Origin: Ignavibacteriales bacterium
GTDB lineage: Bacteria; Bacteroidota; Ignavibacteria; Ignavibacteriales; Melioribacteraceae
DNA: 64,000 nucleotides
Assembly (NCBI GenBank): GCA_026390795.1
Contig: JAPLFG010000003.1
Span: 1,798,001 to 1,862,000 of the forward strand
Direction of reading: 5' to 3'
Part shown: in pieces, positions 19,964 through 36,481 of the stretch
Layout: every line of letters begins with the position of its first letter
How positions within the stretch are numbered: position 1 is the first letter of the stretch
The notes under the pieces: generated by a model
Seen by the model: the letters and a program-made list of their open reading frames with translations, nothing else
Database searches by the model: none
What the model was told of the DNA's origin: nothing
Made by a program: the position numbers and the translations under genes

Positions 19964-20602
19964 TCATTTTATGTTGTCAAGCCACGATTGGAACTCTTTT
20001 ATCTCTTTATTTTGGTTCACAATAGTTTGTTGTGCCATATTTTTCATTACCGAAAATTTTCCATTAGAAACTTCACCCTTGGCCATTGTTACAGCAATTT
20101 CGTGGTGCTTAATCATCATCATTGCAAAATCTTTATCAGTATTTCCGGTCATCTTAATTTTCTTGAAATTTTCATCCATCGAATCCATTGTTCCCATTTT
20201 GTAGTTTGATTTGACTGCGGAATGCTTTTTAATGAATTCATCCATTTTTAAAATTTCATCTTTTTGAACGGTGATAATATTTAGAGCCATTGCTTTCATT
20301 TTCGCTTCAGTACCAGCAGTCAATTCTATTTCCGACATTTCAATGGCGCCCCTGTGATGCTCGATCATCATCTTTGCATAGTCATAATCATAATCTCCTG
20401 TCATTTTCATTTCAGTCATTTTATAATTCATTTTGTTCATGGATTGCATCATTCCCATATTATTCATGTCGGTTGTTTTTGTAAGAGTTGCAGTGGTATC
20501 GTGTTGTTGGATTTTGGAATTATTGTCTTTATTTACACATCCAGGCATGAATAAAAATGATGCTAAAAGGATAATTATTAATGTGGCTAAGGTTGTTTTC
20601 AT
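19964..20602 (-). CDS. DUF305 lipoprotein
   Basis: Lipoprotein signal with lipobox FMPGC (Cys22). Two tandem DUF305 halves follow, each a helical metal-binding ferritin-like unit: DYAKMMIEHHRGAIEM and DFAMMMIKHHEIAVTMA, each with a later KDEI/NKEI helix. The linker is rich in Met. DUF305 proteins are common in copper and other heavy-metal regions, but their chemistry is not established. The promoter region carries copy 1 of a 29-bp element shared with three other genes in the window. Confidence 0.85.
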   Translation of the reverse strand: MKTTLATLIIILLASFLFMPGCVNKDNNSKIQQHDTTATLTKTTDMNNMGMMQSMNKMNYKMTEMKMTGDYDYDYAKMMIEHHRGAIEMSEIELTAGTEAKMKAMALNIITVQKDEILKMDEFIKKHSAVKSNYKMGTMDSMDENFKKIKMTGNTDKDFAMMMIKHHEIAVTMAKGEVSNGKFSVMKNMAQQTIVNQNKEIKEFQSWLDNIK

Positions 20603-21026
20603 TTTGGTTACCCATTATTTTTTGAACGCTTCAGTTACGCTGTTACCCGCACTTCAGGTTCATTTGATCTATTGACTCTATCCGAAATTATGGGGGGATG
20701 AGTCTAAAGACAATCGCCCAAAGGGATGAAAAGAGAGTTAGTGCTTTTAAGCTAGGAATTACAACTCAGCATGAGACACTTTAGAAGCCTGGATATCTGG
20801 GCACATATAAATAACTTAGACTACATTCTCAAAAGTTTTATATTCATAGAAACAATGAGAGTACTCAAAGAGATAGAAGTTGCTCGTAAAGCCGGGTTCA
20901 ATAAAATCGATTAGGAGAATAACATTCCGTCTGTTTATTATCTCCAGTCAACTTTATTAGAAAGTTTAACCGAACCGCAATGCCCGCTTAGTGTAAATAT
21001 TAAATAAATACTGACTATGGCAGGTT
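20603..21026. other. Intergenic region with regulatory element and a doubtful 47-codon frame
   Basis: It holds copy 1 of the shared 29-bp element (20719-20747). An ATG-initiated plus-strand frame at 20771-20914 encodes 47 residues (ending EVARKAGFNKID), without a ribosome site; it may be a gene remnant. Nothing else was recognised. Confidence 0.4.
20719..20747 (-). promoter_or_regulatory. Shared 29-bp upstream element, copy 1 (DUF305 gene)
   Basis: Read toward the gene it is AAAGCACTAAC, then 5 bases, then TTTCATCCCTTTG. The 3' half matches the other copies exactly; the 5' half is the most diverged of the four. It lies 116 bases before the start codon. A CATAAT box begins 26 bases after its last base. 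Confidence 0.6.
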
Positions 21027-21548
21027 TTATTCGTCACCCATATTCTTTGCATCTTTGTTAAATGATTCATACTGCTCTATCGTCATATTAGGAAGTATTT
21101 GTATAAATGACACTATAGCCCAGATCTTATCATCGCTGTGAGTTGTTCCAAATCCCGGCATTCCTGTCATTTTAATACCGTTCTTAGTGATCCAGAAAAG
21201 TTCTGATGGTTTCCAATCTTTGACAGCTTCAGAAAGCTTCGGCGGACGTGGATAAAGACCTTCTCCAATTTCATCATGTTCAATCCCCGGTGCGCCGTGA
21301 CATCCAACGCACATTTCTCTATAATGAATAAATCCGGTTTTTATTAAAGTTGAATCCGATAAATCTGGAGCTTTGATGTCCTTGGAATTATGCTCTATTG
21401 AGTTATCTGTTAAAGTGCTTACAACCCAAAGAGTCAAACCGTTGTGAGGTTCCAATGCGCTGATATTATAGATTCCAGAATAGAGAAAAAGAATTGCCAG
21501 TACGCAAATAATTATTAGAGTAAAAAAGATTTTCCAAAACTTTTTCAT
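21027..21548 (-). CDS. Membrane-anchored c-type cytochrome
   Basis: A single N-terminal membrane helix (about 6-24) is followed by a mono-heme cytochrome c domain with C80-V-G-C83-H84. The likely axial Met is in GIKMTGMPGFG. KIWAIVSFIQILP forms the last helix. The heme domain lies in the periplasm. It may pass electrons in respiration or in a metal-oxidation step; its place in a copper block is the only hint. Confidence 0.88.
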   Translation of the reverse strand: MKKFWKIFFTLIIICVLAILFLYSGIYNISALEPHNGLTLWVVSTLTDNSIEHNSKDIKAPDLSDSTLIKTGFIHYREMCVGCHGAPGIEHDEIGEGLYPRPPKLSEAVKDWKPSELFWITKNGIKMTGMPGFGTTHSDDKIWAIVSFIQILPNMTIEQYESFNKDAKNMGDE

Positions 21549-21579
21549 TTCAATCCTTTCGAAGGAAAAAGAAAAAATT

Positions 21580-21616
21580 CAGATTTGTTATTCTTAATCG
21601 AAGGATAACAAATCTG
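21580..21616 (-). terminator. Rho-independent terminator
   Basis: CAGATTTGTTAT (21580-21591) pairs perfectly with ATAACAAATCTG (21605-21616). On the minus strand the stem is followed by AATTTTTTC, a clear U-tract. It ends transcription of the gene at 21645-21974 before the cytochrome gene. Confidence 0.85.
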
Positions 21617-21644
21617 TGTTCATGCAAAATCGTTTACGTAAATG

Positions 21645-21974
21645 CTACTTTACTTTGAACCCGTTCTCCAACAAATTTTTCTTTGCCTGCTTAACAGTAA
21701 CTTCTTTCAAAGTCATTTTGCATAACGGACATTTACCGGGCTTGTCGGAAATTACATTCCAATCCATTAGATCTTCGAATACTTTGCCGTCTTTGTTTTT
21801 GTCTATTGCTTTCAAATCAACAACACCTTTACGAACGATATTATCTGTTTTTGCAGTATCTTTTTTCATCTCCATTTTTGAATGATCAGCGCTCATTTTC
21901 ATTTGAGCAAATATTCCTGTAGAAGATGTCATAATTACTGCAAATGCAACTAAAAGAATTTTTATTGATTTCAT
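21645..21974 (-). CDS. Periplasmic heavy-metal-binding protein
   Basis: Signal peptide 1-23 (ending IFAQ). A Met/His segment (MKMSADHSKMEM) precedes an EF-hand-like loop DKNKDGKVFED and a C-terminal heavy-metal-binding motif GKCPLCKMTL, which resembles the CPICGMDL motif of the CusB homologue next door. It may deliver Cu(I)/Ag(I) to the efflux complex, as CusF does in enterobacteria, although it is not a CusF homologue. Confidence 0.75.
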   Translation of the reverse strand: MKSIKILLVAFAVIMTSSTGIFAQMKMSADHSKMEMKKDTAKTDNIVRKGVVDLKAIDKNKDGKVFEDLMDWNVISDKPGKCPLCKMTLKEVTVKQAKKNLLENGFKVK

Positions 21975-22025
21975 TTTGCTACTCCTTATTTATTTTGTTT
22001 TTACTTGTTAATCATGAATTAGATA

Positions 22026-23309
22026 TTACATTTTCATTCCAGGCATTGTGCCGGGAGTTGATTTTTTTGAACCGTTTGTTTTATCACCGTTAGGTATTCC
22101 GGTTTTTAGCTGACTTTCGGAATCGATTAAAAATCCGCCGGTAGCAGCTATTTCGTCGCCTTCATTTAATCCAGAAAGGATTTGATATTTATCTCCGAAC
22201 CGATTACCAATTTGAACGCTTCGCGCTTCGAACATTCCATCGCCAGTTTTTGTCCACACTACGGCTCTTTGGCCAGCAATGATAACGGCATCTGCCGGAA
22301 CAAGTAATCCTTGTCCGCCTGCGCTATTGAACACAGTTTCGCCATACATCTGCGGTTTAAGTTTTCCGCCTAAACTTGAAAACTCACTCCTAACTTTTAC
22401 GGTTCTAGTTTGCGAATTAATCACCGGATAAATGAAAGTAACTCTTCCGTTAAATTCTTCTCCGGGATAAGCACGTAAGTGTAATTTAACCGGACTTCCA
22501 ACTTTTACACTTGCCAAATTATTTTCATACACTTCAGCAATATTCCAAAGAGTTGAAAGCTCGGCAACGTCATAAATTGCGGTTCCTTCGTTTACATAAA
22601 CACCTTCCTGAACTTTCTTCTCAATTACGGTCCCGCTTACCGGAGAAAAGTATGTTAGTGTTAGATTTATTTCGCGTGTCTTCTCAAGTGTTAGAATTTG
22701 TTCTGATGTCAAACCGAAAATCTCTAACTTCTTTTTTGATGCACTCAAAAGAGAAGTAGAGTTCGATGAATTATTTAGGGCAATTAAATATTCATTCTGC
22801 GCTTGAACCAAATCTGGGCTGTAAATTTCAAATAGAGCTTGACCTTTTTTGATATAGTCGCCGGTTTTATCAACGAATAGTTTTTCTATCCTTCCATTGA
22901 ACCTCGCCGAGATTGTTTTGCGGTTATTCTCAACAAAATCTAAATAACTATAAGCAGTAACTTGGTTTTGAAGATTTTCTTTCTTAACAACAACTGTAGA
23001 AACATTCGCCAGAATTTGTTTCTTACCGCTCAGCGTAACCATGTCTGCCATATCTTTATCGTTAGCCGGTTCTACTTTTTCATCGACAACTTTTTTAATC
23101 AAATCCATACCGCAGATCGGGCAAGCACCCGGTCTATCCATATGAACTTGCGGGTGCATTGTGCAAGTCCAATACTCCTTAACACTTGTTTGTGGGTTTT
23201 CGTTTTTATTCTTTGCCGAACAACCTATCAAGATAATAATCAAAAGTATCGCAATGTATAATGGTTGATGGTTGATGGTTGATGTGAAAAATGACTTTAA
23301 TGTTTTCAT
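22026..23309 (-). CDS. cusB: CusB-like RND efflux periplasmic adaptor
   Basis: A 427-residue lipoprotein (lipobox LIGC, Cys30). Residues 46-70 are a heavy-metal-binding domain: YWTCTMHPQVHMDRPGACPICGMDL. Membrane-fusion-protein elements follow: barrel-sandwich strands (ARFNGRIEKLFVDKTGDYI), a helical hairpin (QAQNEYLIAL), and a beta-barrel with GGFLIDSESQ near the end. The Met-rich tail (GTMPGMKM) may also bind metal. It links the inner-membrane CusA pump (25141) to the outer-membrane CusC channel (23774). Near the start, ATCAACCATCAACCAT is a short tandem DNA repeat inside the signal peptide region. Confidence 0.92.
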   Translation of the reverse strand: MKTLKSFFTSTINHQPLYIAILLIIILIGCSAKNKNENPQTSVKEYWTCTMHPQVHMDRPGACPICGMDLIKKVVDEKVEPANDKDMADMVTLSGKKQILANVSTVVVKKENLQNQVTAYSYLDFVENNRKTISARFNGRIEKLFVDKTGDYIKKGQALFEIYSPDLVQAQNEYLIALNNSSNSTSLLSASKKKLEIFGLTSEQILTLEKTREINLTLTYFSPVSGTVIEKKVQEGVYVNEGTAIYDVAELSTLWNIAEVYENNLASVKVGSPVKLHLRAYPGEEFNGRVTFIYPVINSQTRTVKVRSEFSSLGGKLKPQMYGETVFNSAGGQGLLVPADAVIIAGQRAVVWTKTGDGMFEARSVQIGNRFGDKYQILSGLNEGDEIAATGGFLIDSESQLKTGIPNGDKTNGSKKSTPGTMPGMKM

Positions 23310-23310
23310 A

Positions 23311-23685
23311 TTATTTCTTCTTTTTATTTTCTTGTGAGGTTAATTTTATTGATACAAAGATTTTACAAAGCTGTTCGGATTCTTCTAATAAGATCTTCAA
23401 TTGCTTTTGTTGATTACCATCTTTCAGTAATTCAATTAAGACTCTTAACCAAAATTTGGACTCTCTTGCTTCTTTAGAAACAATTCCAATTTTATGAATG
23501 AAATCGTTTTTTGATTCTGCCGCTTGCGATTCTTCATAATTTGCGCCGATTGATGTGACTGCTTTTGCCAGCTGATTAATTATAACTTTGTTTATAGTTG
23601 TAGGCGGAAGAGCATCTAATAATTTCAGAGTATCCACTGCAAATCGAAAAGTTCGATTTAACATTTCCTCTGTTTTCTCATTCAT
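23311..23685 (-). CDS. Four helix bundle protein (23S rRNA intervening-sequence type)
   Basis: A 124-residue helical protein with the family signatures FRFAVDTLKLLDALP, INQLAKAVTSIGANYEESQAA and KEARESKFWLRVL. Members are often encoded in intervening sequences of 23S rRNA or as single genes in Bacteroidota, with no known function. A GGAG ribosome site precedes the start. It is inserted between the adaptor and the outer-membrane channel of a copper efflux operon, 1 base from the adaptor gene, which is an odd place and suggests an insertion. Confidence 0.88.
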   Translation of the reverse strand: MNEKTEEMLNRTFRFAVDTLKLLDALPPTTINKVIINQLAKAVTSIGANYEESQAAESKNDFIHKIGIVSKEARESKFWLRVLIELLKDGNQQKQLKILLEESEQLCKIFVSIKLTSQENKKKK

Positions 23686-23773
23686 AATAAACTCCTTTAA
23701 TTCTTTTATCTGATACTCATTTTTAAATTCTTCAATTAGCCATCGACCATTGTTTCACCTCAACAATCATACA

Positions 23774-25102
23774 TCAAAACTCATCCATTTTTTTCCCAAC
23801 CATCATTTCAATTTCCGCAAGCGACATTTGAGTATCAGCTTTTGCCATGTAATAGTTCATCTGCTGCATCAACAACATGCGGTAAGAATCAATTACTGTT
23901 GTAACACCGGTTCTATTATTCTGATAAGCCGACACTTGCGATTCAGCGGCGTTGCTATAAAGCGGAATTACTTTTTCATTATAGAGTTTTGCCAAATCAA
24001 CAGCCGTGTTATATTTAACAAGAGCAGCTTTTAATTGAGAAGTCATCTCGCGCTGCATATCTTTCTTCTCATATTCAATACTGCTTATTCCGGCAGATAG
24101 TTCTTCTTCCTTTGCTTTGTATTTGTTGATTGACCACGGGGCAAATGGAAGATTGATTGAGAACATCAGTGAATACATGTACTCTGTCTTGGGAGTTTCC
24201 ATTGCAAGCATTGCTAAATCTGTCTTTGATGTAAGAATCATTCCTCGCGGCATTCTCATAAACATACCTTGAACCATTAAATCGGGAATCAACTCACGGT
24301 TGTTGGCATTAATCATCGCTTTATTCATTTCGATCATGCCGCCCATTTTTTTGAGAGTAGGATTTGAATCAGCGAGAATTTCTTCCAACTTAGATTGAGT
24401 TGAAGAGAGAGAATCTGCAGAAAAATCTTTAACAGCATAAACATCTTTTGAATCAAGATTTCGTCCGAGAAATTTATTGAGTTTGTAAATCTCTGCTTCT
24501 TTCTGCTTTTCCAAAATCAGAAGCTGAGTTTCATCCGAAGCGATTTCACTCTGGAGAGTAAGAAGATCCGCTTGATTGATCTTATTTGTGTAGTAAGATG
24601 ATTCAACCGATTTAATTACATTTTTAATTAAAGCAATATTTTTTTTCTGAACATCGATCTTCCTATCAATCAGCCAAAGTGTGTAATAAGACATTTTTAT
24701 TTGAGCCGTGAGATTAATTTTATATATATCAAAATTGTTTCCTTCAACAAAAGTATTCTTCCTTTCAACGTCAGCCATTGCATTCAGTTTTCCGCCAAGA
24801 GGAAACATTTGCGAAAGAGCAATGCTGTTTGAGTTGGATTGATTAAGAATATCTATCGAGCTCGTTGGCACTTGAGAAAACTCAACCGAAAAATTTGGTG
24901 CAGGAAGAGTGTTGATTGATTCAGTTCTCCTTTCTGATGCGGTGATTTTATATTGTAATGATTTCAACTGCGGATTATTTTTTACCCCTTCTGAAACCAA
25001 AGAGTCAACTGACTGTGCATTTATTCTTGTGTTAATAACTAATAATAAACTTAACACAGAGAGTACAGAAAATATCACAGAGTTCCGCAGAGTTTTTCCC
25101 AT
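23774..25102 (-). CDS. cusC: CusC/TolC-like outer membrane efflux protein
   Basis: I start at ATG 25102 (MGKTLRNSVIFSV) because a Sec signal peptide begins there. The upstream in-frame extension to 25162 overlaps a repetitive stretch (TCTCAATTC units) and the CusA stop. The protein has the duplicated long-helix architecture of the outer membrane efflux family, with PNFSVEFSQVP, DRKIDVQKKNIALIKN, ELIPDLMVQGMF and a final MAEADTQ-like helix. It forms the trimeric exit channel for the CusA-CusB complex. Confidence 0.88.
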   Translation of the reverse strand: MGKTLRNSVIFSVLSVLSLLLVINTRINAQSVDSLVSEGVKNNPQLKSLQYKITASERRTESINTLPAPNFSVEFSQVPTSSIDILNQSNSNSIALSQMFPLGGKLNAMADVERKNTFVEGNNFDIYKINLTAQIKMSYYTLWLIDRKIDVQKKNIALIKNVIKSVESSYYTNKINQADLLTLQSEIASDETQLLILEKQKEAEIYKLNKFLGRNLDSKDVYAVKDFSADSLSSTQSKLEEILADSNPTLKKMGGMIEMNKAMINANNRELIPDLMVQGMFMRMPRGMILTSKTDLAMLAMETPKTEYMYSLMFSINLPFAPWSINKYKAKEEELSAGISSIEYEKKDMQREMTSQLKAALVKYNTAVDLAKLYNEKVIPLYSNAAESQVSAYQNNRTGVTTVIDSYRMLLMQQMNYYMAKADTQMSLAEIEMMVGKKMDEF

Positions 25103-25140
25103 TATATAATTCTCAATTCTCAATTCTAAATTCTCCATTA

Positions 25141-28100
25141 TTATTCTCCCTCCTTCATCCAATCGGCCATTTTGGAAATTTCAAGTGTACCTTTTTTAAG
25201 CGCATGTTCTTTCATAATTGCAAACAAAATAGGAGTAACTACAAGTACGTGAACCGCGGATGTTAATAGTCCTCCAATCATTGGTGCGGTAAGCGGTTTC
25301 ATCACATCCGATCCGGTTCCGGTTGCCCACATGATTGGAATAAGTCCAACCATAGCAGTGAAAACAGTCATTAGCTTTGGTCTCAATCTTAGAACCGAAC
25401 CTTCAACAGTTGCTTCATAAATATCATCATTTGTTATTGGTCCTCTTTTCCCTTTTTGATGATCGCGAATCCTTCTATCCAACGCTTCATGCAGATATAC
25501 AACCATTATAACACCGGTTTCAACAGCAATTCCGTATAGAGCAATAAATCCAACCCAAACTGCGACGGAGAAATTGTAACCAAGAATGTAAATCATATAC
25601 ATTCCGCCGATTAGCGCGAACGGAACCGAGAGCATTACAACCCCGGCTTCAACGTAATTTTTAAGTGTCAAATAAAGAAGAAGATAGATCAACACGAAAA
25701 CTATAGGCATAATAATTTCAATTGTCTGCTGCGCGCGGACTTTGCTTTCATATTGTCCGCTCCAAGTGTAAGAGTATCCTGCCGGAAGTTTCAATCCATT
25801 TTCGATAACTTTTTTAGCGTCAACCATTACACTTCCCATATCACGCCCGCGTGTATTCATAAAGACTATTGAACGAAGCATTCCGTTTTCACTGCTGATC
25901 ATGGGCGGACCGGTTACTAAATTTATATCGGCTAATTCAGTGAGAGGCAGATAAGTAACCGCATTTTGATTTACACTTGTTAGTGAATAATCATTTTGCG
26001 TTGCTGGTGCTTCAGGAATAGCGCTAGCTTGATTCGAACTTCCCATCGAAGACATTCCGCTGGAGTTACCTTTATTTGTTCCGCTACTCATCGAACCAGA
26101 TGATGAAGCCATAGGATTTGATAATGCAACCGGAACGATTAAGCTTTTTAGTTCTTCAATGTTATCACGGTAATCTTTTTGATAGCGCATTCTAATCGGA
26201 AAACGCATTCTTCCTTCGAGTACAATTCCAAGGTTTTGACCGCCGATTGCGGTTTCAATAATATCTTGAAGATCACTAATGTTTACACCGTAACGGGCGG
26301 CTATTCCTCTTTTAATATTAATATCGAGATAGTAACCATTTTGAACTCGCTCTGCAACGACATCGGCAGCACCGTTAACATTCTTCAAAATACCTTCTGC
26401 TTTGATTGCGTATGTTTCCAGAGTATCTAAGTTCGGTCCAAAGATTTTGAGACCAATATCTGTTCGCACACCGGTTGAAAGCATATTAATTCTGTTGATA
26501 ATCGGTTGAGTCCAGCCGTTACGCACACCGGGTATTTGTAATTTTGCATCAAGTTCTGCAACAATATCTTGTTTTGTAATTCCAGGGCGCCATTCGCTTT
26601 TTGGTTTGAGTAAAATAATTGTCTCAATCATACTTAACGGAGCGTTGTCTGTTGCAGTTTCTGCGCGCCCGGTTTTTCCCAGAACATGGTGAACTTCTGG
26701 TATAGACTTAATGATTTTGTCTTGTTCCTGTAAAATTCTATTCACTTCACCAATTGACGCACCGGGCAAAGTTACGGGCATATAAAGAATTGATCCTTCA
26801 TCAAGCGGAGGCATGAATTCACTTCCGGTATTAAGAATCATTGGAATTGTAATCAGAAGAGCAATTACATTTATCGCGATTGTAATTTTTCTGTGTTTGA
26901 GCACCCAATGAATTACCGGGGCATAAAGTTTAATAAAAAAATGCGTGGTTGGATTTTTCTCTTCCGGTTTGAATTTACCGCGCATCAGCATAGTCATCAA
27001 GACCGGTATTAGAGAAATAACTACAATGGCAGACCCGATCAATGCAAACGATTTTGTATACGCAAGCGGATGAAATAATTTTCCTTCTTGCCCGGTTAAC
27101 ATAAATACAGGAAGAAATGAAACAAGAATTATTAATTCAGAAAAGAAGATTGCTCTTCCAACTTGCTTCGCCGAATCAATTGAAATGCGTTTATATTCCT
27201 CCGGTGTTAGGTGTCCCTTTACCTCAATTGCCTTAGCTAAGTTTCTGTATGCGTTTTCCACAAGAACAATTGAAGAATCTACTATTACTCCAACAGCTAA
27301 TATTATTCCTCCGAGTGACATGATGTTGGAAGAAATTCCGAACAAATACATAAGAATGAAAGCGATAAGAATTGCTATGGGAAGTTCAATCAAAATTCTG
27401 ACGATGCTTCTGAAGTGAAGAAGAAAAATCATCACCATAATTGAAACGGTAATTGAAGCTTCTATTAATGCTCTTTCTAAAGTTCCTACGGCTTCTTTAA
27501 TCAACGTGCTTCTATCATATGATGTAACAATCTCAACCCCGGGTGGAAGACCGGGAGAAATTTCTTTTATCTTTTCTTTTACATGATCAATTACATCTTT
27601 TGCATTTTCACCGGTTCTCATTACTATTATTCCGCCAACAACTTCTCCTTCGCCGTTTTTATCCAGCGCCCCACGCCGTATATCGCCGCCAAGTTCAACC
27701 GATGCAACATTTTTAATTAGAATCGGAATTCCATTTGAAGCAGTTTTTATTACGGTATTTTCAATATCATTCTTTGATTGAATGTAACCTTGACCGCGCA
27801 CAAAATATTCAGCATTACTTATTTCTAAGATTTTCCCGCCGACTTCATTATTACTTTTCTGAACGGCACTGACTACATCGGAAACCGTTAGATTGTAAGC
27901 GCGTAAATCAGTAGGGTTAACATTGACCTGATATTGTTTTACATATCCGCCTATGCTTGCAACTTCCGCAACACCCGCGACGGAGGAAAGCTTGTAGCGG
28001 ATATACCAATCCTGAACTGCTCGAAGAGTTCCGAGATCATATCCTTTGCCCTCGACTGTATACCAATAAACATGTCCAACACCGGTTCCATCGGGACCTA

Positions 28101-28485
28101 GTGAAGGGACAACTCCGGATGGCAGTTGAGCTTGAATTGTATTCATCCTTTCAAGGACACGTGTGCGAGCAAAATACGGATCAACGCCATCTTCAAATAC
28201 AACAAAGACAAAAGACATACCGAACATTGAAGTTGCCCGCACTGCTTTAACTTTAGGCAATCCTTGTAAACCGGAAACAATTGGATAGGTAACTTGGTCT
28301 TCAATTATCTGAGGTGATCTTCCCATCCATTCTGTATAAATGATAACCTGGTTTTCGGATAAATCTGGAATTGCATCAACCGGAAGATTGACCACACTAT
28401 AAATTCCAGCGGCGATAACAATTAGATAAATCAGAATTACAATGAAACGATTTTGTGATGACCATTCTATAATTTTTTCAATCAT
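25141..28485 (-). CDS. cusA: CusA/CzcA-family heavy-metal RND efflux pump
   Basis: A full-length 1114-residue RND transporter. It begins with MIEKIIEWSSQNRF and has 12 membrane helices and two large periplasmic loops. Signatures include VNLPVDAIPDLSENQVI, YPIVSGLQGLPKVKAVRA, the helix-4 segment GGIILAVGVIVDSSIVLVENAYR and GFIALYGIAVETGVIM. A Ser/Gly/Met/Asn-rich insert (about 785-835, SSGSMSSGTNKGNSSGMSSMGSS) interrupts the second periplasmic loop and is unusual in length. With the Met/Cys proteins nearby, Cu(I)/Ag(I) is the likeliest substrate. Confidence 0.93.
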   Translation of the reverse strand: MIEKIIEWSSQNRFIVILIYLIVIAAGIYSVVNLPVDAIPDLSENQVIIYTEWMGRSPQIIEDQVTYPIVSGLQGLPKVKAVRATSMFGMSFVFVVFEDGVDPYFARTRVLERMNTIQAQLPSGVVPSLGPDGTGVGHVYWYTVEGKGYDLGTLRAVQDWYIRYKLSSVAGVAEVASIGGYVKQYQVNVNPTDLRAYNLTVSDVVSAVQKSNNEVGGKILEISNAEYFVRGQGYIQSKNDIENTVIKTASNGIPILIKNVASVELGGDIRRGALDKNGEGEVVGGIIVMRTGENAKDVIDHVKEKIKEISPGLPPGVEIVTSYDRSTLIKEAVGTLERALIEASITVSIMVMIFLLHFRSIVRILIELPIAILIAFILMYLFGISSNIMSLGGIILAVGVIVDSSIVLVENAYRNLAKAIEVKGHLTPEEYKRISIDSAKQVGRAIFFSELIILVSFLPVFMLTGQEGKLFHPLAYTKSFALIGSAIVVISLIPVLMTMLMRGKFKPEEKNPTTHFFIKLYAPVIHWVLKHRKITIAINVIALLITIPMILNTGSEFMPPLDEGSILYMPVTLPGASIGEVNRILQEQDKIIKSIPEVHHVLGKTGRAETATDNAPLSMIETIILLKPKSEWRPGITKQDIVAELDAKLQIPGVRNGWTQPIINRINMLSTGVRTDIGLKIFGPNLDTLETYAIKAEGILKNVNGAADVVAERVQNGYYLDINIKRGIAARYGVNISDLQDIIETAIGGQNLGIVLEGRMRFPIRMRYQKDYRDNIEELKSLIVPVALSNPMASSSGSMSSGTNKGNSSGMSSMGSSNQASAIPEAPATQNDYSLTSVNQNAVTYLPLTELADINLVTGPPMISSENGMLRSIVFMNTRGRDMGSVMVDAKKVIENGLKLPAGYSYTWSGQYESKVRAQQTIEIIMPIVFVLIYLLLYLTLKNYVEAGVVMLSVPFALIGGMYMIYILGYNFSVAVWVGFIALYGIAVETGVIMVVYLHEALDRRIRDHQKGKRGPITNDDIYEATVEGSVLRLRPKLMTVFTAMVGLIPIMWATGTGSDVMKPLTAPMIGGLLTSAVHVLVVTPILFAIMKEHALKKGTLEISKMADWMKEGE

Positions 28486-28636
28486 AATATTTCTCTTTTG
28501 ATCTTTAGTTTTTTTATAAACTCGATCTCTTTTGCAGATAGCTTAACAAAATAGAATTACTTAAACTGCTTAAAATGCACAGAGATATACGGAGAAGCTA
28601 TTTAACTTCTGTTAAGGAAAAAGAATTAGACGAGAA

Positions 28637-29062
28637 TCAAATGAGAAGAATGGAATCGAGTAAAAATAGAGGAGGACTATGAACTTTCTCTATTCTTTGT
28701 CTGAAATGAAAACTAACTGATTTGTTTTGATAATCCGAAGGAAAATAGATAACGGCAGAAATATTTTCTTTTTGTAACTCAAAATTATTCTGAATGGTAT
28801 AATCAGAATTATTGGTTTTGGAATGAATGCATCCGCAATTCGAAATGCAGTGTGCGGATGTTGAATACTCAAGTTCACAACCGGAAGTTGATTCTTGTGT
28901 AGTTTCCTGGCAGCAAGTATCAAATTTCTTTTCTATTTCTTTTGTATGGCAGCAATCGATTGGACTTACATTCGAAATGAATCCGCTAAGAGTAAACACT
29001 AATTGGACTGATAACCCTAATAGCGTAATTTGTTTTAATATTTTTTGTCTGGATCGAATCAT
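28637..29062 (-). CDS. Cys-rich exported protein upstream of the Cus genes
   Basis: A 141-residue protein with an N-terminal hydrophobic segment (about 12-32), then paired cysteines (DCCH, TCCQE) and CISNCGCIHS. It ends with a hydrophobic helix (PPLFLLDSILLI). I do not recognise a family. Its position, about 150 bases before CusA on the same strand, makes it the probable first gene of the efflux operon, possibly a metal-sensing or metal-binding envelope protein. Confidence 0.65.
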   Translation of the reverse strand: MIRSRQKILKQITLLGLSVQLVFTLSGFISNVSPIDCCHTKEIEKKFDTCCQETTQESTSGCELEYSTSAHCISNCGCIHSKTNNSDYTIQNNFELQKENISAVIYFPSDYQNKSVSFHFRQRIEKVHSPPLFLLDSILLI

Positions 29063-29655
29063 TTTTCTTTATCTAATACGAAACAAAATAAAGATTTATT
29101 TACTTAATAAGAAAATATTTTTATGATCAATGTTTCAACCATAGCCTATATACAATAGTTCCCAATACGGAGGATTTTATGAAAATTAAATAAATCTACA
29201 TATATCTAAGTGTTTTCATTTTGTGATAGGAACGGTAATTTTCTTTTTAAGAACCGCAAAAATTTCAATACTGCGTCTGTAATTAGTCATTAAAAGCAAA
29301 TATGGGATGACGACATTAAATTTAAGATCAAATCTCAAGGAAGCAGCGAATCATTGAAAAATGAAAACTCCAAATTCTTTCGTTTTTGGGGTCTAAAGAG
29401 CTGGCTATAGGGCTCTTCCAAAGGAATCCCTTCGGGAGAACCCGTCCCGACCAGTCGGGACTGATTACAAAGCACTTCTTTTTCTTAAATCCTTTTAGAA
29501 CAAATTAATTTCAAAGGTTTTTCTTCTTATGCAATAGTTCTGCAATAAGAACAATTTACTTTACTTAAAAATGCAAAGGCCTAAGGCTGTAATATTAATT
29601 GTAAACATTACTACTTATATAAAAATTTCAGCGGATTAAACATTAAGAAATTCTG
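29063..29655. other. Gene-free region with a degenerate tRNA-Thr attachment-like repeat
   Basis: It contains the promoter region of the gene starting at 29062. At 29179-29193 there is a 4-codon frame (ATG AAA ATT AAA TAA) after a good GGAGG site, possibly the ruined start of a lost gene. The degenerate tRNA 3' end with inserted palindromes lies at 29369-29471. No other coding sequence is credible. Confidence 0.5.
29369..29471 (-). repeat. Degenerate tRNA-Thr 3' end plus terminator, interrupted by palindromes
   Basis: 29369-29416 matches 35296-35344 closely (shared CCAAATTCTTTCG, TTTTTGGGGTCT and GAGCTGGCTAT). The anticodon-loop end CTGATTACAAA is present at 29461-29471. Between them the T- and variable-arm sequence is split by a segment centred on AAGGAATCCCTT and by the perfect palindrome TCCCGAC-CA-GTCGGGA (29444-29459). 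One terminator stem base is mutated (CTCC for CCCC). It looks like an old attachment-site copy that was later hit by short palindromic repeats. Confidence 0.7.
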
Positions 29656-29850
29656 TCACTCAAGTTCAGTTTCTTTGCTCTTTGTCATAACAATGAAATC
29701 TCTATAGGGTAATCTGTAAGATTTATTATTAACTGAAATTTTTATATCAGGTTTTGTTACATCCAGAACAGTAGCTTTGTCACCGCCGGTGAATTTATAT
29801 TCTTTGTTCAACGGAGTAAAATTTTTTCTAAAAACTCTTTCCAATTCCAT
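29656..29850 (-). CDS. Small hypothetical protein
   Basis: The 64-residue product starts at ATG 29850 after a strong AAAAGGAGTCTAT site. It is a compact beta-rich sequence (KATVLDVTKPDIKISVNNKSYRLPYRDFIVM) that could be an SH3- or KOW-like barrel. I do not recognise the family. It is preceded by copy 2 of the shared 29-bp element, 82 bases upstream of the start, which supports it being a regulated real gene. Confidence 0.65.
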   Translation of the reverse strand: MELERVFRKNFTPLNKEYKFTGGDKATVLDVTKPDIKISVNNKSYRLPYRDFIVMTKSKETELE

Positions 29851-29932
29851 ATAGACTCCTTTTTTTCTTCACATAGAATATTATTGAATCGTGGTCAGAA
29901 ATTATAGAAGAATTTATGAGAAGTAAATAGTG

Positions 29933-29961
29933 CAAAGGGATGAAATGTGCACTACATCTTT
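29933..29961 (-). promoter_or_regulatory. Shared 29-bp upstream element, copy 2
   Basis: In gene direction it is AAAGATGTAGT, 5 bases, TTTCATCCCTTTG. A TATAAT box begins 26 bases after its end, and the start codon of the 64-residue protein is 82 bases away. Confidence 0.65.
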
Positions 29962-30162
29962 TTCGGCAATAAAGATCAAATTTATTCAATAACGACCATA
30001 ATTTCTCAATTGATGTTTTGCCATGAATTAGATGAAGTAGTTATTAAACAGAATTCCGATACTATTCTAAAGAAAAATGTTTTTGAATCATACGGACTGA
30101 AATTTAATATTTGCCTAAAATCTCAACATATTCTAATGTTTCATAGCATAAACGGCATATAA
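29947..30162 (+). CDS. Doubtful 71-residue frame
   Basis: A GTG start lies 7 bases after AAAGGGA, and the product (beginning MHYIFFGNKD) has no recognised features. Its start lies inside the shared 29-bp regulatory element, which argues that the apparent ribosome site is coincidental. Confidence 0.25.
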   Translation: MHYIFFGNKDQIYSITTIISQLMFCHELDEVVIKQNSDTILKKNVFESYGLKFNICLKSQHILMFHSINGI

Positions 30163-30220
30163 AATTGCAAATGATCGGACCTCACATTCACTAGTATTAT
30201 TTCTAATCGTTCATTGGTTT

Positions 30221-30249
30221 AAATATGTAGTTCCGTTTTCATCCCTTCG
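30221..30249 (+). promoter_or_regulatory. Shared 29-bp upstream element, copy 4 (RNB gene)
   Basis: AAATATGTAGT, 5 bases, TTTCATCCCTTCG. A TATAAT box begins 36 bases after its end, and the RNB start codon is 85 bases away. Confidence 0.65.
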
Positions 30250-30334
30250 CTCGATTGAAATACCTCGGATATCTGAATAAATTAGTATAATAGTGTCAAT
30301 ATGAAATTTGTTAATTATAAAATAAGGTAATAAT

Positions 30335-31810
30335 ATGACGAATACAGACGACAGACAGCACCGCTCAAGGTTAAAAAAAATTGCACGTCGTGTGATGAAA
30401 GAAAGAGGTTTCTTTCCGGATTTTTCTATTTATGCGATGGCTGAGCTTGATAAAATACAGGGGCCGGCAACACAACCCGAAGAATCGACACCTGTACTTA
30501 GGAATCTAATCTGGTGCTCAATCGATAATGATGATTCACGTGATCTTGACCAAATTACATTTGCTGAATCACTGACGGGCGGAATTACAAAGATACTTGT
30601 GGCCATATCCGATGTTGATGCTCTTTTAAAGAAAGGTTCGGCACTTGATGATCATGCTAGACAAAACACTACTTCGATCTATACTGCCGCCGAGATATTC
30701 CCGATGCTGCCCGAAAAACTTTCTACAGATCTTACTTCTCTAAATCTTGAATCTGACCGGCTTGCGATTGTTATTGAAATGAATATTTCAGAGGATGGAT
30801 CTCTTAATAGTTCGAGCATTTATAAAGCAGCAGTTCGTAATCATGCAAAGCTTGCCTACAACAGCGTTGCAAATTGGCTCGAAGGTAATGGTCCGATTCC
30901 CGAGGAGGTTCGCACTATAGAAGGACTTGCTGAGAACCTTCAACTCCAAGACCGCACTGCCCAGAAATTAAGAGCACTTCGGCACGAGCACGGCGCTCTT
31001 AACCTTGAGACAATAGAAGCACGACCGGTTTTTGAAGGAGACGAACTCAAGGATCTGAAAGCTGAAAAAAAGAACAGAGCCACAGAAATTATTGAAGACT
31101 TTATGATCTCGGCAAACGGTGTAACTGCACGGTACCTTGCTTCCCAAAAATTTACTTCTCTTCGACGCGTTGTGCGAGTACCCAAGCGTTGGGAACGAAT
31201 TGTTGAACTTGCCAGAGAACGCGGTTCAATATTACCTATGGAACCCGATGCTAAATCACTTGAACAATTTCTTGTATCAGCAAAAGCAAATGATCCGCTT
31301 CGCTTTCCTGATCTATCATTGAGTGTCATCAAACTTCTTGGTCCCGGAGAATATGTCATCGAACTTCCCGGAGGTGACGTCAGTGGGCACTTCGGTCTTG
31401 CGGTCAAGGATTATGCTCATTCGACAGCTCCTAACCGTCGCTTTCCTGATATAATAACACAGCGTTTACTGAAAGCTGCTTTGGCATCAAACCCTCAACC
31501 ATACACGAATGACGAATTAGAATTGCTAGCTAAACACTGCTCTGAAGCAGAAGACGCCGCGAAAAAAGTTGAAAGGCAGGTAACTAAATCTGCGGCCGCA
31601 ATTTTATTGGAATCAAGAATTGGAGAACGTTTCGATGCCATAGTTACCGGCGCATCTGAGAAGGGCACTTGGATCCGTCTGCTACACCCTCCAATAGAAG
31701 GAAGGCTTGAGAGCGGGTTTGAAGGTATGGATGTTGGTCACGAACTCCGAGTGCAACTTGCTAGCACGAATGTGGAGCGCGGATATATTGATTTTAAGAG
31801 AGTGAATTAA
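30335..31810 (+). CDS. RNB-domain ribonuclease (RNase II/R family, short form)
   Basis: A 491-residue exoribonuclease-like protein. The RNB core starts near residue 56; the magnesium-site motif reads SIDNDDSRDLDQ (D64, D70, D72, Q73), where E. coli RNase II has D201, D207, D209 and D210. So the last acidic residue is Gln here. The second signature HSTAPNRRFPDIITQR matches the HFTSPIRRYxDLxxHR region but with Ala and Asn replacements. There is no N-terminal cold-shock pair; a short S1-like end (about 435-490) remains. It is expected to degrade RNA 3' to 5', with possibly altered activity. Codons are richer in G+C than those of neighbours. Confidence 0.88.
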   Translation: MTNTDDRQHRSRLKKIARRVMKERGFFPDFSIYAMAELDKIQGPATQPEESTPVLRNLIWCSIDNDDSRDLDQITFAESLTGGITKILVAISDVDALLKKGSALDDHARQNTTSIYTAAEIFPMLPEKLSTDLTSLNLESDRLAIVIEMNISEDGSLNSSSIYKAAVRNHAKLAYNSVANWLEGNGPIPEEVRTIEGLAENLQLQDRTAQKLRALRHEHGALNLETIEARPVFEGDELKDLKAEKKNRATEIIEDFMISANGVTARYLASQKFTSLRRVVRVPKRWERIVELARERGSILPMEPDAKSLEQFLVSAKANDPLRFPDLSLSVIKLLGPGEYVIELPGGDVSGHFGLAVKDYAHSTAPNRRFPDIITQRLLKAALASNPQPYTNDELELLAKHCSEAEDAAKKVERQVTKSAAAILLESRIGERFDAIVTGASEKGTWIRLLHPPIEGRLESGFEGMDVGHELRVQLASTNVERGYIDFKRVN

Positions 31811-31930
31811 GTAGCGGCACTATAATGTAAGGTTACGAGATACTAGAATTAGAAAAATTTTAGAGACTGACCGGATTATCAATAAGAGAAAATAGTTAAT
31901 CACTCTCTTCAATTTTAAAGTCTCGGAATA

Positions 31931-33139
31931 CTAAACTTTTTTGGTTTGAATTGGAAGATTACGAATCTCATCAAAGAAAGGAGTCTTTTTTTCTTCAACG
32001 CATTTTACTGCATACAAATAAAGTGCAGCACTCCAGGTTTGCCAATCCTGTCCCATCGGTTTTCCATCTTGTGCTTTAATCCACTCATTAAATCCAAAAT
32101 CGACATTCCCGGTAGCAGACATTTTAATAGTATGAGTAAGTGCTAAGAGTTTTTCTTCTGCAAGTTCGTATCTTTTTGCGGCAACTAAGGCTGCCACATA
32201 AAGTCCAGATATAAATGGCCAAATTCCTCCGTTGTGGTATTCACCCGGTTTGTTATAAATTTCATATCTAGGCAGCCAATCGGGGTCCACAGGTTTTATA
32301 AATGGGAAAAAATTAGGAGGTAGATCAACACTCAATTCACCCCTCTTTCTCATAACCCTACATTCCTCTTCGATCCATGAAATCATTTCATCGGATCTTG
32401 TGGGAGAAGCCAAACCAGAAAGAATAGCAAGACTGTTTCCGAGTAAGTCGAATCTTTCACTGCTATAAATTTTGTAGGACCAGAAAGCATAGTATGGTTT
32501 GTGTTTCACTACAAGACCTTCATGAACGTGGTGGTGTATTGTTCCTCCTGTAATAGTAAAGCGACCCATTTCACGTGCTACTTTATCGGCTCTTTCAAAC
32601 TTGCCTAAGATCCTTAGGTAAGAATACTCTAAAGTGTTTACAAACAATCCATATCCTGTAACCCATTGTTCATCGCGCCAGTCACTTGTAGGCTGCTGGG
32701 CAACAAGGTATCTGTCAGATGGACTTTGATATTCCATCCAAGTCAATGCTTTCTCAATTGATTCATTCAGAAAGTCCAATTCACCGGAAATTTTTTTAAA
32801 GATACCAACACCCAGCAAAAAGAGCGGAGTAGTATCACTAGCTCCTCGATCTTCTTTATCATGCACGAGTGAAGGAATGTGACCATGCTCAGTTTGATTT
32901 TTTGCAAGTGTTTCTAATACTCTCCGGATACTATCGAGTAATTTCTGATTTCCAGAAACAGCAATTCCCAAAATAGAAAACATTAAATCTCTTGTATAAG
33001 GTTCTGGATAACCCCAACCTGCAGTACGCGGAAGACCTTGAAAAGGTCCATGGCTATTATGAATTAGTACTTCAAGCGCGGCATCCTTTGCTTTATTTAT
33101 CTCTAACCAATTTTCAGTCTGTTTCGAATTAATTTTCAA
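31931..33139 (-). CDS. Six-hairpin glycosidase (GH100/glycogen-debranching-like)
   Basis: A 402-residue cytosolic protein with an (alpha/alpha)6-barrel style: GYPEPYTRDLMFSILG, HIPSLVHDKEDRGASDTTPLFLLG, QQPTSDWRDEQWVTGYGLF, EYHNGGIWPFISGLYVAAL and FNEWIKAQDGKPMGQDWQTWSAALYLYAV. These resemble neutral invertases (GH100) and amylo-alpha-1,6-glucosidase C-terminal domains; the acidic residues in TRD and SDWRDEQ are candidate catalytic or binding residues. The substrate cannot be chosen from sequence. It is the last gene of a three-gene operon, 1 base after the glycosyltransferase. Confidence 0.7.
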   Translation of the reverse strand: MKINSKQTENWLEINKAKDAALEVLIHNSHGPFQGLPRTAGWGYPEPYTRDLMFSILGIAVSGNQKLLDSIRRVLETLAKNQTEHGHIPSLVHDKEDRGASDTTPLFLLGVGIFKKISGELDFLNESIEKALTWMEYQSPSDRYLVAQQPTSDWRDEQWVTGYGLFVNTLEYSYLRILGKFERADKVAREMGRFTITGGTIHHHVHEGLVVKHKPYYAFWSYKIYSSERFDLLGNSLAILSGLASPTRSDEMISWIEEECRVMRKRGELSVDLPPNFFPFIKPVDPDWLPRYEIYNKPGEYHNGGIWPFISGLYVAALVAAKRYELAEEKLLALTHTIKMSATGNVDFGFNEWIKAQDGKPMGQDWQTWSAALYLYAVKCVEEKKTPFFDEIRNLPIQTKKV

Positions 33140-33140
33140 A

Positions 33141-34283
33141 TTACCTTATTCCTAATCTATCGTTCATTATCTGAACAAATTTTTTTGCAACAATCCGGAA
33201 ATCGAAATTTTTCATTACACGTTCTCTTCCTGCTTTTCCCATTTTATCTCGAAGCTCAGCATTCGTCATCAGCATCATTAAATATTTTGCGATGTCATGA
33301 ACATTTGCACGGTAATCTACTGTTCTTGGTACTTTAAAAGTAACTTTATGTTGATCCTCAAAGCCAGCGTCGTCGCCAAGCAATACATCGTTAACAACAA
33401 TTTTCTGGGCAACACTTGCCAGCAATGCTGTTTCCTCATGGATTAGGGTATCCAGCATTCCCATAGCTTTAATACTTATAACCGGTTTTTGGCAGGCACC
33501 GGCTTCTACTTGTGGCATTCCAAATCCTTCGAGTCTAGAAGGGGCAGCATATATATCGCATGCGCCAATAAGGTAAGGCATAAAATTTCGAGAAATTGTA
33601 TTTGTTTCGTACGTTACATTTTTTTCAATACCCAGATGTGTTGCCATTTCAAGATCAGCTAGATTTTGAATTTTTGTTCGTGGCTGTGGCCATACTTTGC
33701 ATACATATTTCCAATCAGGTGCTTTAGTGTCAATGAGGGCGAGTGCCTGCATTACTTCTTGTGCGCCTTTTGAAGCAGCATCGCCGCCAACGGTCAATAT
33801 CATTAACTGATCTGGTGATATGCCCAAAGATTCGCGCACTGCTAATATTTTTGGATCGTTTTTAGCGTACGGTCTGAATATATCTGTATCACAGCCTACA
33901 GGTAACACTTCAATTTTATCGCCATTAATACCATCGCGTACATACATCTCTTTTACCCAATTCGATGTTACAAGAATGAGTGGAAGGGAATTCAAAACTT
34001 CCTGATAGTTTGCAATGTAACCGTCTGCCACTAACCAAGGTACCGGTTGCACCCCATAACGTAACGGATGAAGTACAAGTTGTGGTGTATGTCCCCAATA
34101 ACCCACGCCTACAACAACATCAGGTTCAAACCAACGATAGTACCATTCCTTTTCCTGAGCGGATTCAAAATGAACCGCATACGCATCAACTCCCAGTTCA
34201 ATTAAACCCTGATAGAGTAGATCTCCCTGTGTAGAAAGTCCCCCGGGTGATGGTGGATAGTCATATAATACCAATACTTTCAT
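33141..34283 (-). CDS. Glycosyltransferase family 4
   Basis: A GT-B-fold glycosyltransferase of 380 residues. The N-terminal half begins VLVLYDYPPSPGGLSTQGDLLYQGL with a GGxS acceptor-side loop. The C-terminal half has ILTVGGDAASKGAQEVMQAL and the EX7E-type nucleotide-sugar motif in SRLEGFGMPQVEAGACQKPVI. It should move a sugar from a nucleotide donor to an unknown acceptor in the cytoplasm. It overlaps the upstream deacetylase gene by 4 bases and is followed immediately by a glycosidase gene, so the three act together on a glycan or glycoside. Confidence 0.88.
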   Translation of the reverse strand: MKVLVLYDYPPSPGGLSTQGDLLYQGLIELGVDAYAVHFESAQEKEWYYRWFEPDVVVGVGYWGHTPQLVLHPLRYGVQPVPWLVADGYIANYQEVLNSLPLILVTSNWVKEMYVRDGINGDKIEVLPVGCDTDIFRPYAKNDPKILAVRESLGISPDQLMILTVGGDAASKGAQEVMQALALIDTKAPDWKYVCKVWPQPRTKIQNLADLEMATHLGIEKNVTYETNTISRNFMPYLIGACDIYAAPSRLEGFGMPQVEAGACQKPVISIKAMGMLDTLIHEETALLASVAQKIVVNDVLLGDDAGFEDQHKVTFKVPRTVDYRANVHDIAKYLMMLMTNAELRDKMGKAGRERVMKNFDFRIVAKKFVQIMNDRLGIR

Positions 34284-34915
34284 ATTAAAACTCCTCTATT
34301 ATCAAGCCATTTTTTTGCATCATTCGGGTTTGTAAATTTCCAAAAAGCTTCTGCCTTTGGAGTCGTTACTGCTTCCCAACTATTTATTTCAAATCCGTAT
34401 GTCTCAGTGATAATTCTATATTTTGTTTTCCAAATTTTTTCTTTAAGATTTTGAAAAAGATCGGCATTTGCTTGAGGTCTCGGATAATATTGTTTATTGC
34501 CGTCTTCGTAAGCAAAGGCCCAGAGTTCACGAGTGAGTATTTCTCCATTATACCAGAGGTTAATAACTGCTCTACCTGTTTCTTCATGCCTTTTATGTCT
34601 TGTGTATTCTCCATTTGGATTGTGAGAAATTATCAAGTCAAAATGCTTTTTTATTAATAATTTTTTGATAAGATTCTCCACCTCTTTCTCATCCAGAGCA
34701 TTCTGTTCAGGGCCATCGTCAAGATCACCCATAATTCCTTCAGCCTTAAGAATTTTTAGTGCATTAAAAAATCTATTAGCACGTTCTATATCACTAGATC
34801 TGCATAACGAAACGATAAACCTTCGCCAATTGGGATGCATTAGTATCGTTCCGCCGGCCCATAATGTTTCATCATCGGGGTGTGCTACAATTAAAGCAAT
34901 TTCATTTGAATTCAA
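34280..34915 (-). CDS. PIG-L/LmbE family deacetylase
   Basis: The metal motif AHPDDE is at residues 11-16, with the paired histidine motif HNPNGEYTRHKRHEE later; together they form the zinc site of N-acetylglucosaminyl deacetylases. The start is TTG at 34915, seven bases after AGGA; no ATG is in frame nearby. The ATG seven bases upstream is out of frame and stops at once. It leads the three-gene glycan operon. Copy 3 of the shared 29-bp element lies 72 bases upstream, so the operon is probably controlled with the RNB gene. Confidence 0.88.
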   Translation of the reverse strand: MNSNEIALIVAHPDDETLWAGGTILMHPNWRRFIVSLCRSSDIERANRFFNALKILKAEGIMGDLDDGPEQNALDEKEVENLIKKLLIKKHFDLIISHNPNGEYTRHKRHEETGRAVINLWYNGEILTRELWAFAYEDGNKQYYPRPQANADLFQNLKEKIWKTKYRIITETYGFEINSWEAVTTPKAEAFWKFTNPNDAKKWLDNRGVLI

Positions 34916-34987
34916 GTTTTCATCCTAACGATATACCATTGTAATCCATTATAAAACTATGAAGAGAGGTAACTTGATTCAATCAAT

Positions 34988-35016
34988 CAAAGGGATGAAA
35001 AAAGAACTACATCTTT
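34988..35016 (-). promoter_or_regulatory. Shared 29-bp upstream element, copy 3 (glycan operon)
   Basis: In gene direction AAAGATGTAGT, 5 bases, TTTCATCCCTTTG: identical to copy 2 outside the 5-base spacer. A TATAAT box begins 34 bases after its end. Confidence 0.65.
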
Positions 35017-35461: not shown

Positions 35462-36481
35462 ATGTTCATTTCTAAAACAAAAAAATCACCATTCTATCAA
35501 TTGACTTATGAAGTTGATGGAAAGAAAACAACCATCTCAACGAAAGCTAAAAACCGCACTGATGCCCATCTCTTTTTAATATACTTTCAAAAAAAACGAG
35601 ATGGAGAATCCAAAGAACAAATAAAATCCATATCATTAACTAAATTCAAGGAGGAATATGATGATTACATTAAGCCAACAAAATCAAAAAGCTATCTTCG
35701 TTCTATTAATCTTTCTTTCAAAATGCTAATTGCTTTCAGTGGAGATATTTCATTAAGCAGATTAGATATTCACACAATCGATAAATTTATCACTCACACT
35801 TTTTCACGAACTCCGAGAGGAGCTTCTCTTTATTACCGTACACTGAAAGCTGCTTTTAGTAAAGCTGTTCTTTGGAATTACATTACTGAAAATCCACTTA
35901 AGAAAATTAAAACTCCAAAAGTTTCTAAAGCTTTTCCGGTTTTCATTTCCGAAACAGAATTGAAAACTATTCTGGAAAATACACAAGAGGAATATCTCAA
36001 AGATTTATTTCTCACCGCTTTTTATACCGGAATGCGTCTTGGTGAATTAGTAAATATGAAGTGGTCGTGGGTCGATCTAAAACAGAATCAAATTACTGTT
36101 CAATGCTCAGAGTTTTTCACAACCAAGAGTAAAAAAGAAAGGATCATCCCGTTTAATTCTAATCTCAAAAAGATTTTTATGAATCGATTTCCAAAAGTAG
36201 TCAGTATCAAAAATGACGAATATATTTTTTCAAAACTCCCCGGAATAAAATTCAATGAAGACTTTATAAGCAAAAAGTTCAAGGATTTCGTTCGTGCTGC
36301 CAAACTTGATGAAAGAATTCACTTTCATACTTTGCGGCATTCTTTCGCTTCGCTATTGGTCCAGCGTGGAGTTTCTTTATATGTGGTCAAAGAATTGCTC
36401 GGACATGAAGAGCTTTCAACTACTCAAATCTACAGTCATCTACAACAACAAAACTTGAGAGATGCTGTGAATCTATTATAA
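35462..36481 (+). CDS. Tyrosine recombinase/integrase
   Basis: A 339-residue phage-type integrase. A SAM-like core-binding domain covers about 55-150, and the catalytic domain has R192 (TGMRLGE), a basic strand lysine near 222, H289-x-x-R292 (HTLRHS), H315 (LLGHEE) and nucleophile Y324 (QIYSHL). A strong AAGGAGGAG site precedes the ATG. It lies 94 bases from the truncated tRNA-Thr 3' end, so it probably carried out integration there. It is clearly related to the recombinase at 43137-44249 but lacks the repeat-derived insert of that protein. Confidence 0.92.
   Translation: MFISKTKKSPFYQLTYEVDGKKTTISTKAKNRTDAHLFLIYFQKKRDGESKEQIKSISLTKFKEEYDDYIKPTKSKSYLRSINLSFKMLIAFSGDISLSRLDIHTIDKFITHTFSRTPRGASLYYRTLKAAFSKAVLWNYITENPLKKIKTPKVSKAFPVFISETELKTILENTQEEYLKDLFLTAFYTGMRLGELVNMKWSWVDLKQNQITVQCSEFFTTKSKKERIIPFNSNLKKIFMNRFPKVVSIKNDEYIFSKLPGIKFNEDFISKKFKDFVRAAKLDERIHFHTLRHSFASLLVQRGVSLYVVKELLGHEELSTTQIYSHLQQQNLRDAVNLL

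Follow-up and report, generated by a model that had tools for sequence, protein, structure and literature searches.

The 64,000 nt stretch of DNA analysed here (hereafter the window; Ignavibacteriales bacterium, assembly GCA_026390795.1, contig JAPLFG010000003.1, positions 1,798,001–1,862,000) carries four copies of a 29 bp element that had originally been predicted, from the letters alone, to be an activator site defining a regulon of unrelated genes. We found that this element is the middle part of a longer promoter, CTCACCC-AAAA-GATGTAGTYCCTTTTTCATCCYTTTGNCCGATTGA(AT)-N17-TANNNT, whose geometry is fixed. In our judgement these promoters probably belong to a stress regulon under two-component control, in which operons that each start with such a promoter are arrayed in one direction. 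The candidate regulator is of the NarL/LuxR response-regulator type, and we infer that it binds and activates the promoters. The computational evidence lies in the element and its geometry, placement, copy number and target genes, together with the co-inheritance and linkage of the regulator gene; copy number, placement, the fixed −10 box and regulator distribution support the view that the site defines a regulon.

All four window copies were recovered at the places and in the orientations first claimed for them (sites 1–4: 20719–20747, minus strand; 29933–29961, minus; 30221–30249, plus; 34988–35016, minus), in an ungapped alignment and with each directed at its own gene. The distances from element to start codon, taken from the coordinates, are 116, 82, 85 and 72 bases, matching the range of 72–116 given at the outset. 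The earlier consensus fits sites 2 and 4 without mismatch and site 3 with two, whilst at site 1, with five mismatches, only the right half is exact and the left half is a variant, AAAGCACTAAC. We scored the whole window with an independent matrix built from 298 training copies, all from outside this genome (whose own 24 of the 322 copies described below were excluded). Sites 1–4 scored 34.7, 41.2, 43.3 and 57.4, respectively, no other position of the window scored above 8, and 60 random windows generated to match its dinucleotide frequencies reached 1.4 at most.

The promoter geometry was read from two sets of deduplicated copies, 315 with a score >25 for a first alignment and 322 with a score >30 for a count of registers; window site 1 (score 29.1) falls below the latter cut-off and is outside that set. 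With the G of GATG as index 0, the conserved block of the 315 copies runs from CTCACCC, at about index −11, via AAAA-GATGTAGTYCCTTTTTCATCCYTTTG to the −35 sequence CGATTGA, the ATTG of which (index 30–33) is 81–100 % conserved. The −10 box starts 17 bases past the −35 hexamer (T54 77 %, A55 87 %, T59 96 %), and a weak purine preference is seen near index 66–68. In the larger set, TANNNT stands at index 54 in 232 of the 322 copies, whilst most other registers hold ~10 and the next highest 60 (index 59) and 30 (index 42); after thinning for similar downstream DNA it stands there in 172 of 243. As the −10 sequence was present in no query or matrix, its register is independent evidence. The copies have the layout of sigma-70-type promoters with an upstream regulatory site, their −35 and −10 hexamers being 17 bp apart and at a fixed distance. 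At all four window sites the −10 TANNNT starts 28 bases past the 29 bp element (TAATTT, TAATTT, TAAATT and TAGTTT), and the −35 is poor at site 2 (TTTACT). The TATAAT or CATAAT boxes first reported 26, 26, 34 and 36 bases after the element do exist as letters, but the conserved −10 lies at 28 in each of the four, and the last two boxes, at 34 and 36, fall out of register. Their spacing of close to one DNA turn was an artefact of choosing boxes by eye. A variable −10 spacing was rejected.

A genome-wide motif scan, which had been proposed as a check, found ~26 copies in this genome (G000; 4.08 Mb in five contigs), again supporting the regulon reading. With up to two mismatches allowed, GATGTAGTNNNNTTTTCATCCYTTNG gave 24 matches and the reversed control pattern none; a second search pattern also gave 24, adding window site 1 and C3:1042459, so that the union of both is 26 copies. 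Nor do matches lie freely inside coding regions or lack positional bias, which had been named as grounds for doubting the regulon: open reading frames (ORFs) of at least 100 amino acids make up 78 % of the DNA examined, and the element midpoint lies inside such an ORF in only seven of the 322 copies. A downstream ORF was identified for 285 of these copies, with no suitable ORF for the other 37.

The main array of this genome comprises 14 copies, all on the minus strand, over 65 kb (C3:414–65162); the remaining copies, including the window's four, are outside it. For the element and regulator searches across 39 related genomes, positions are those among the matches listed, and in these terms single-strand arrays of 16, 15 and 11 copies are present in G007, G023 and G019, respectively. 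By visual inspection of mechanically picked ORFs, operon-like units stand behind the element, similar units occur in different order in the four genomes, and a response-regulator gene stands ahead of the first element in all four arrays, directly so in three. Among the first ORFs behind the elements, with families assigned via cluster representatives or homologues, we counted 34 ice-binding proteins, 29 response regulators of the candidate's family, 20 KaiC-like ATPases, 11 CsbD and nine YtxH proteins; a universal stress protein (Usp) and an S30AE hibernation-type protein sit in the main array. The description of the targets as unrelated thus holds for their sequences, yet many of them (CsbD, YtxH, Usp, S30AE) are of stress type. 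Among the 80 of 115 stretches listed, and with labels as deposited, the named records with exact matches are mostly metagenome-assembled genomes of Ignavibacteria, including Stygiobacter and Melioribacter, the latter a member of that class, and some are labelled Bacteroidetes, Bacteroidales, Chlorobiaceae or Aminicenantes.

The element and the candidate regulator are largely found in the same genomes. In the set of 39 relatives (regulator homologue cut-off >200 bits), the regulator is present in 12, the strict element in 11 and both in 10, which amounts to a regulator in 10 of 11 element-positive versus two of 28 element-negative genomes; in both genomes with a regulator and no strict element (G025 and G033), a diverged element follows the regulator gene. 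In a second set of 159 genomes at least 90 % complete, sampled from the larger class (regulator cut-off E ≤ 1e-45), the element was found in 31, the regulator in 43 and both in 29, such that the regulator accompanies the element in 29 of its 31 genomes and is present in 14 of the 128 without it. Across the 14 regulator-only genomes, 13 diverged elements were located in the 8.6 kb around or after regulator genes as opposed to five in 264.6 kb elsewhere; 11 of the 14 have one at the regulator gene, and TANNNT is in register in eight of the 13 matches. As controls we used two other genes of the array. The KaiC-like ATPase is present in 20 of the 159 class genomes, of which 17 are element-positive (17/31) and 19 regulator-positive. 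Homologues of the array's ECF sigma factor are near-ubiquitous (136 of 159 genomes, against 31 with the element), and because it is therefore not discriminating we rejected it as the cognate factor. Among the factors compared, the response regulator fits the element's distribution best.

The regulator gene used as query (G000:C3:19153–19842) lies inside the main array, and a 78 % identical copy stands at the array head (G000:C3:65194–65874). The candidate regulator combines a receiver (PF00072) with a GerE domain (PF00196; Pfam). Of the solved structures, VraR, NarL, DesR and DevR match it best, with VraR and NarL the closest. Across distinct homologous segments, with the A and B types of the regulator pooled, the phospho-acceptor Asp56 is kept in 164 of 165 and Lys106 in all 165. 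The regulator gene, or a remnant of it, ends 26–36 bases before the element in 20 of 302 copies. We rejected the idea that every element was copied along with a piece of the regulator gene, as regulator homology occurs within 900 bases upstream in only 37 of the 302. Short or interrupted remnants of the gene were seen at G003:C110:91301–91522, G003:C28:10662–10910 and G019:C5:606284–606693, two of them within ~60 bases of an element.

Two of the window's targets can be followed into a relative, G003, which together with G001 is grouped in the window's genus. Close homologues of the RNB and PIG-L proteins occur in one of the 38 other relatives, in both cases G003 (RNB 73 % identical, with the other matches at 27–31 %; PIG-L 68 % identical). 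Both G003 genes are element-headed (element at C53:78703 and RNB gene at 78808; element at C98:8486 and PIG-L gene at 8606), and a regulator gene (C53:77989–78672) followed by the element stands directly ahead of the RNB gene. On this comparison, the RNB and PIG-L targets of the window are predicted members of the wider element system.

We infer regulator binding, activation rather than repression, and the signal from these comparisons, and the stress role from gene content. Each copy would combine a sigma-70-type promoter with a regulatory site in its upstream part; with +1 placed near index 66, the block covers about −77 to −36. It would thereby run into the −35, a position that makes the activator role first proposed for the site likely. 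Kinases of the island (PAS and CheB/CheR-type, as judged by eye) probably drive the response regulator, which most likely binds the conserved block, perhaps at the weak dyad G-N3-TA-N3-C around GATGTAGTYC. Once bound, the regulator would recruit RNA polymerase to a promoter whose −35 is fair and whose −10 is weak, and would thereby turn on a regulon for stress or persistence; further element-headed response regulators may amplify or extend the response. Given that response-regulator genes of the candidate's family are often element-headed, such a feed-forward arm is probable.

A number of observations weigh against this reading. The switch residue of the regulator, Thr in VraR and Ser in NarL, is Asp in 149 of the 165 segments; as a lead only, activation may deviate from the usual route given this atypical residue. 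The block is largely non-palindromic, the five base pairs of a proposed left dyad being complementary in 99.6, 5, 12, 54 and 93 % of 243 copies (GGACTAGTCC is seen in one diverged copy, in G104, and is absent from all 322 main copies). In G019 the regulator at the array head is ~700 bases from the first element. Of the regulator-only genomes, G050 and G101 have no diverged element at the matrix cut-off, and the one found in G051 lies away from the regulator gene. The association of element with regulator in the class genomes (Fisher p = 6e-19) was calculated with kinship ignored. Lastly, element and regulator are linked within one island, for which reason co-occurrence and adjacency are not proof.

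The last of these points bears directly on a rather improbable alternative, namely that the promoter site is read by another protein (a different regulator, an alternative sigma factor, or paralogue B and not A) and that regulator A is a passenger of the island, in which case co-occurrence would be expected regardless. Three element-positive genomes without a close regulator homologue (G031 of the 39 relatives, and G097 and G042 of the class set) are in keeping with this, as are the recognition-helix stretches of paralogues A and B, which are near-identical. Against it, the ECF factor occurs almost everywhere, the KaiC-like gene of the same island tracks the element worse than the regulator does (17 versus 29 of 31), and in distant families, too, diverged elements keep their place beside the regulator gene. 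The single-strand arrays of 14, 16, 15 and 11 copies, with their varying unit order, could also be read as the work of an integron-like process, in which the element would serve above all for recombination or assembly of the co-oriented array and would resemble a promoter only secondarily; one contig of the viral collection, moreover, carries a copy next to ORFs judged by eye to be recombinase-like. We judge this to be quite unlikely, as the −10 is held in a fixed register, single copies are scattered outside the arrays, and no recombinase family is prominent among the protein families common to at least three arrays (by eye from sequence starts, with no dedicated recombinase search).

The probability that the element instead works at the RNA level, as a leader sequence or a structured regulatory RNA, is slighter still. 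GATG and CATC inside the element could pair, but the −10 is downstream of the element, which would therefore lie outside the transcript from that promoter. An Rfam RNA element was rejected, with no Rfam matches in the window, L031 or L033. Chance resemblance of AT-rich intergenic DNA, a concern insofar as the consensus came from four sites picked by eye, is already refuted: the sites score 34.7–57.4 with the independent matrix, against at most 1.4 in the random windows, and the genome holds 24 copies where the reversed control has none.

The proposed stress regulon is of a known kind, the two-component regulon, and a new, large member of it with an unusual array layout. As in the NarL, VraR/LiaR and DevR regulons, a regulator with receiver and GerE domains is paired with sites upstream of sigma-70 promoters; unlike NarL/LuxR-family regulons, the block is ~40 bp long, largely non-palindromic and nearly invariant, its targets form a co-oriented array, and the regulator bears Asp where VraR and NarL bear Thr and Ser. 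SigB and EcfG/PhyR control general stress response regulons, with which the element shares CsbD, YtxH, Usp and S30AE genes as targets; in contrast to these, its promoter is sigma-70-like with an upstream site, and the array's ECF factor does not track it. Integron cassette arrays likewise consist of reshuffled units that face one way and have a short sequence in common, whereas here that sequence is a promoter with a fixed −10, the units are operons of one to many genes, and no attached integrase was noticed among the families common to at least three arrays (by eye, no search aimed at recombinases having been made). The element also shows no symmetric half-sites like those of CRP/FNR regulators. 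We found no description of the element or the regulon in open-licence PubMed Central papers, and the stress regulon appears undescribed. PMC8510549 reports predicted CRP/FNR regulons in Ignavibacteria, including one that is MalR-like and concerned with carbon sensing, and thus treats the same class and a regulator family different from that of our candidate.

More tentatively, and with doubt prevailing, the regulon may be a modular, transferable island: a regulator gene at one end, at least 10 same-direction operons each with its own promoter copy, promoter-plus-operon units that are gained, lost and reshuffled between genera to an integron-like outcome, and a regulator class with Asp at the switch. 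If this were true, the island would illustrate a way for a large regulon to travel and be reassembled as one unit, made possible by the promoter copy that comes with every operon. The results would in any event give a little-studied bacterial class a candidate master regulator of stress whose promoter code is precise and whose targets are listed, both of which can be put to the test. They would also offer a likely context for genes of unknown role such as those for the 64-residue protein, the DUF305 lipoprotein and several small membrane proteins.

The target genes in the window were named correctly in the original prediction, according to their Pfam matches. Copy 1, with −35 TTGTCT (20708–20713) and −10 TAATTT (20685–20690) in the register of the 322 copies, precedes the DUF305 lipoprotein gene (19964–20602, minus strand; PF03713). 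Copy 2, with a weak −35 (29922–29927) and −10 TAATTT (29899–29904) in the same register, is directed at the gene for the 64-residue protein (29656–29850, minus), which has no Pfam family match and is a member of a cluster of four element-headed proteins. The boxes of copies 3 and 4 are likewise in register. Copy 3, with −35 TTGAAA (30255–30260) and −10 TAAATT (30278–30283), heads the gene for the RNB-family ribonuclease (30335–31810, plus; PF00773). Behind copy 4, with −35 TTGAAT (34977–34982) and −10 TAGTTT (34954–34959), lie three minus-strand genes specifying a PIG-L family deacetylase-like protein (34280–34915; PF02585), a group-1 glycosyltransferase (33141–34283; PF00534) and a glycosidase-like protein (31931–33139; PF12899).

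Elsewhere in the genome, the extra weak copy at C3:1042459–1042488 (plus strand) precedes a lipoprotein-like gene that resembles, by eye, an element-headed gene of G003 (L229:14456–15103), for which reason weak copies can be real. At the ends of contigs C2 (304698–304723) and C3 (414–439), the element heads genes that resemble those for ice-binding or repeat-rich secreted proteins, and the array may therefore continue across the assembly break. A scan of viral contigs gave one match, on L188 (1608–1654 and 1791–2786), where the element is just upstream of the ORFs judged recombinase-like, perhaps at a prophage edge. We found no tRNA genes in the window, in which a gene for a tyrosine recombinase of the phage integrase family (35462–36481, plus; PF00589) adjoins element copy 4 in the opposite direction.

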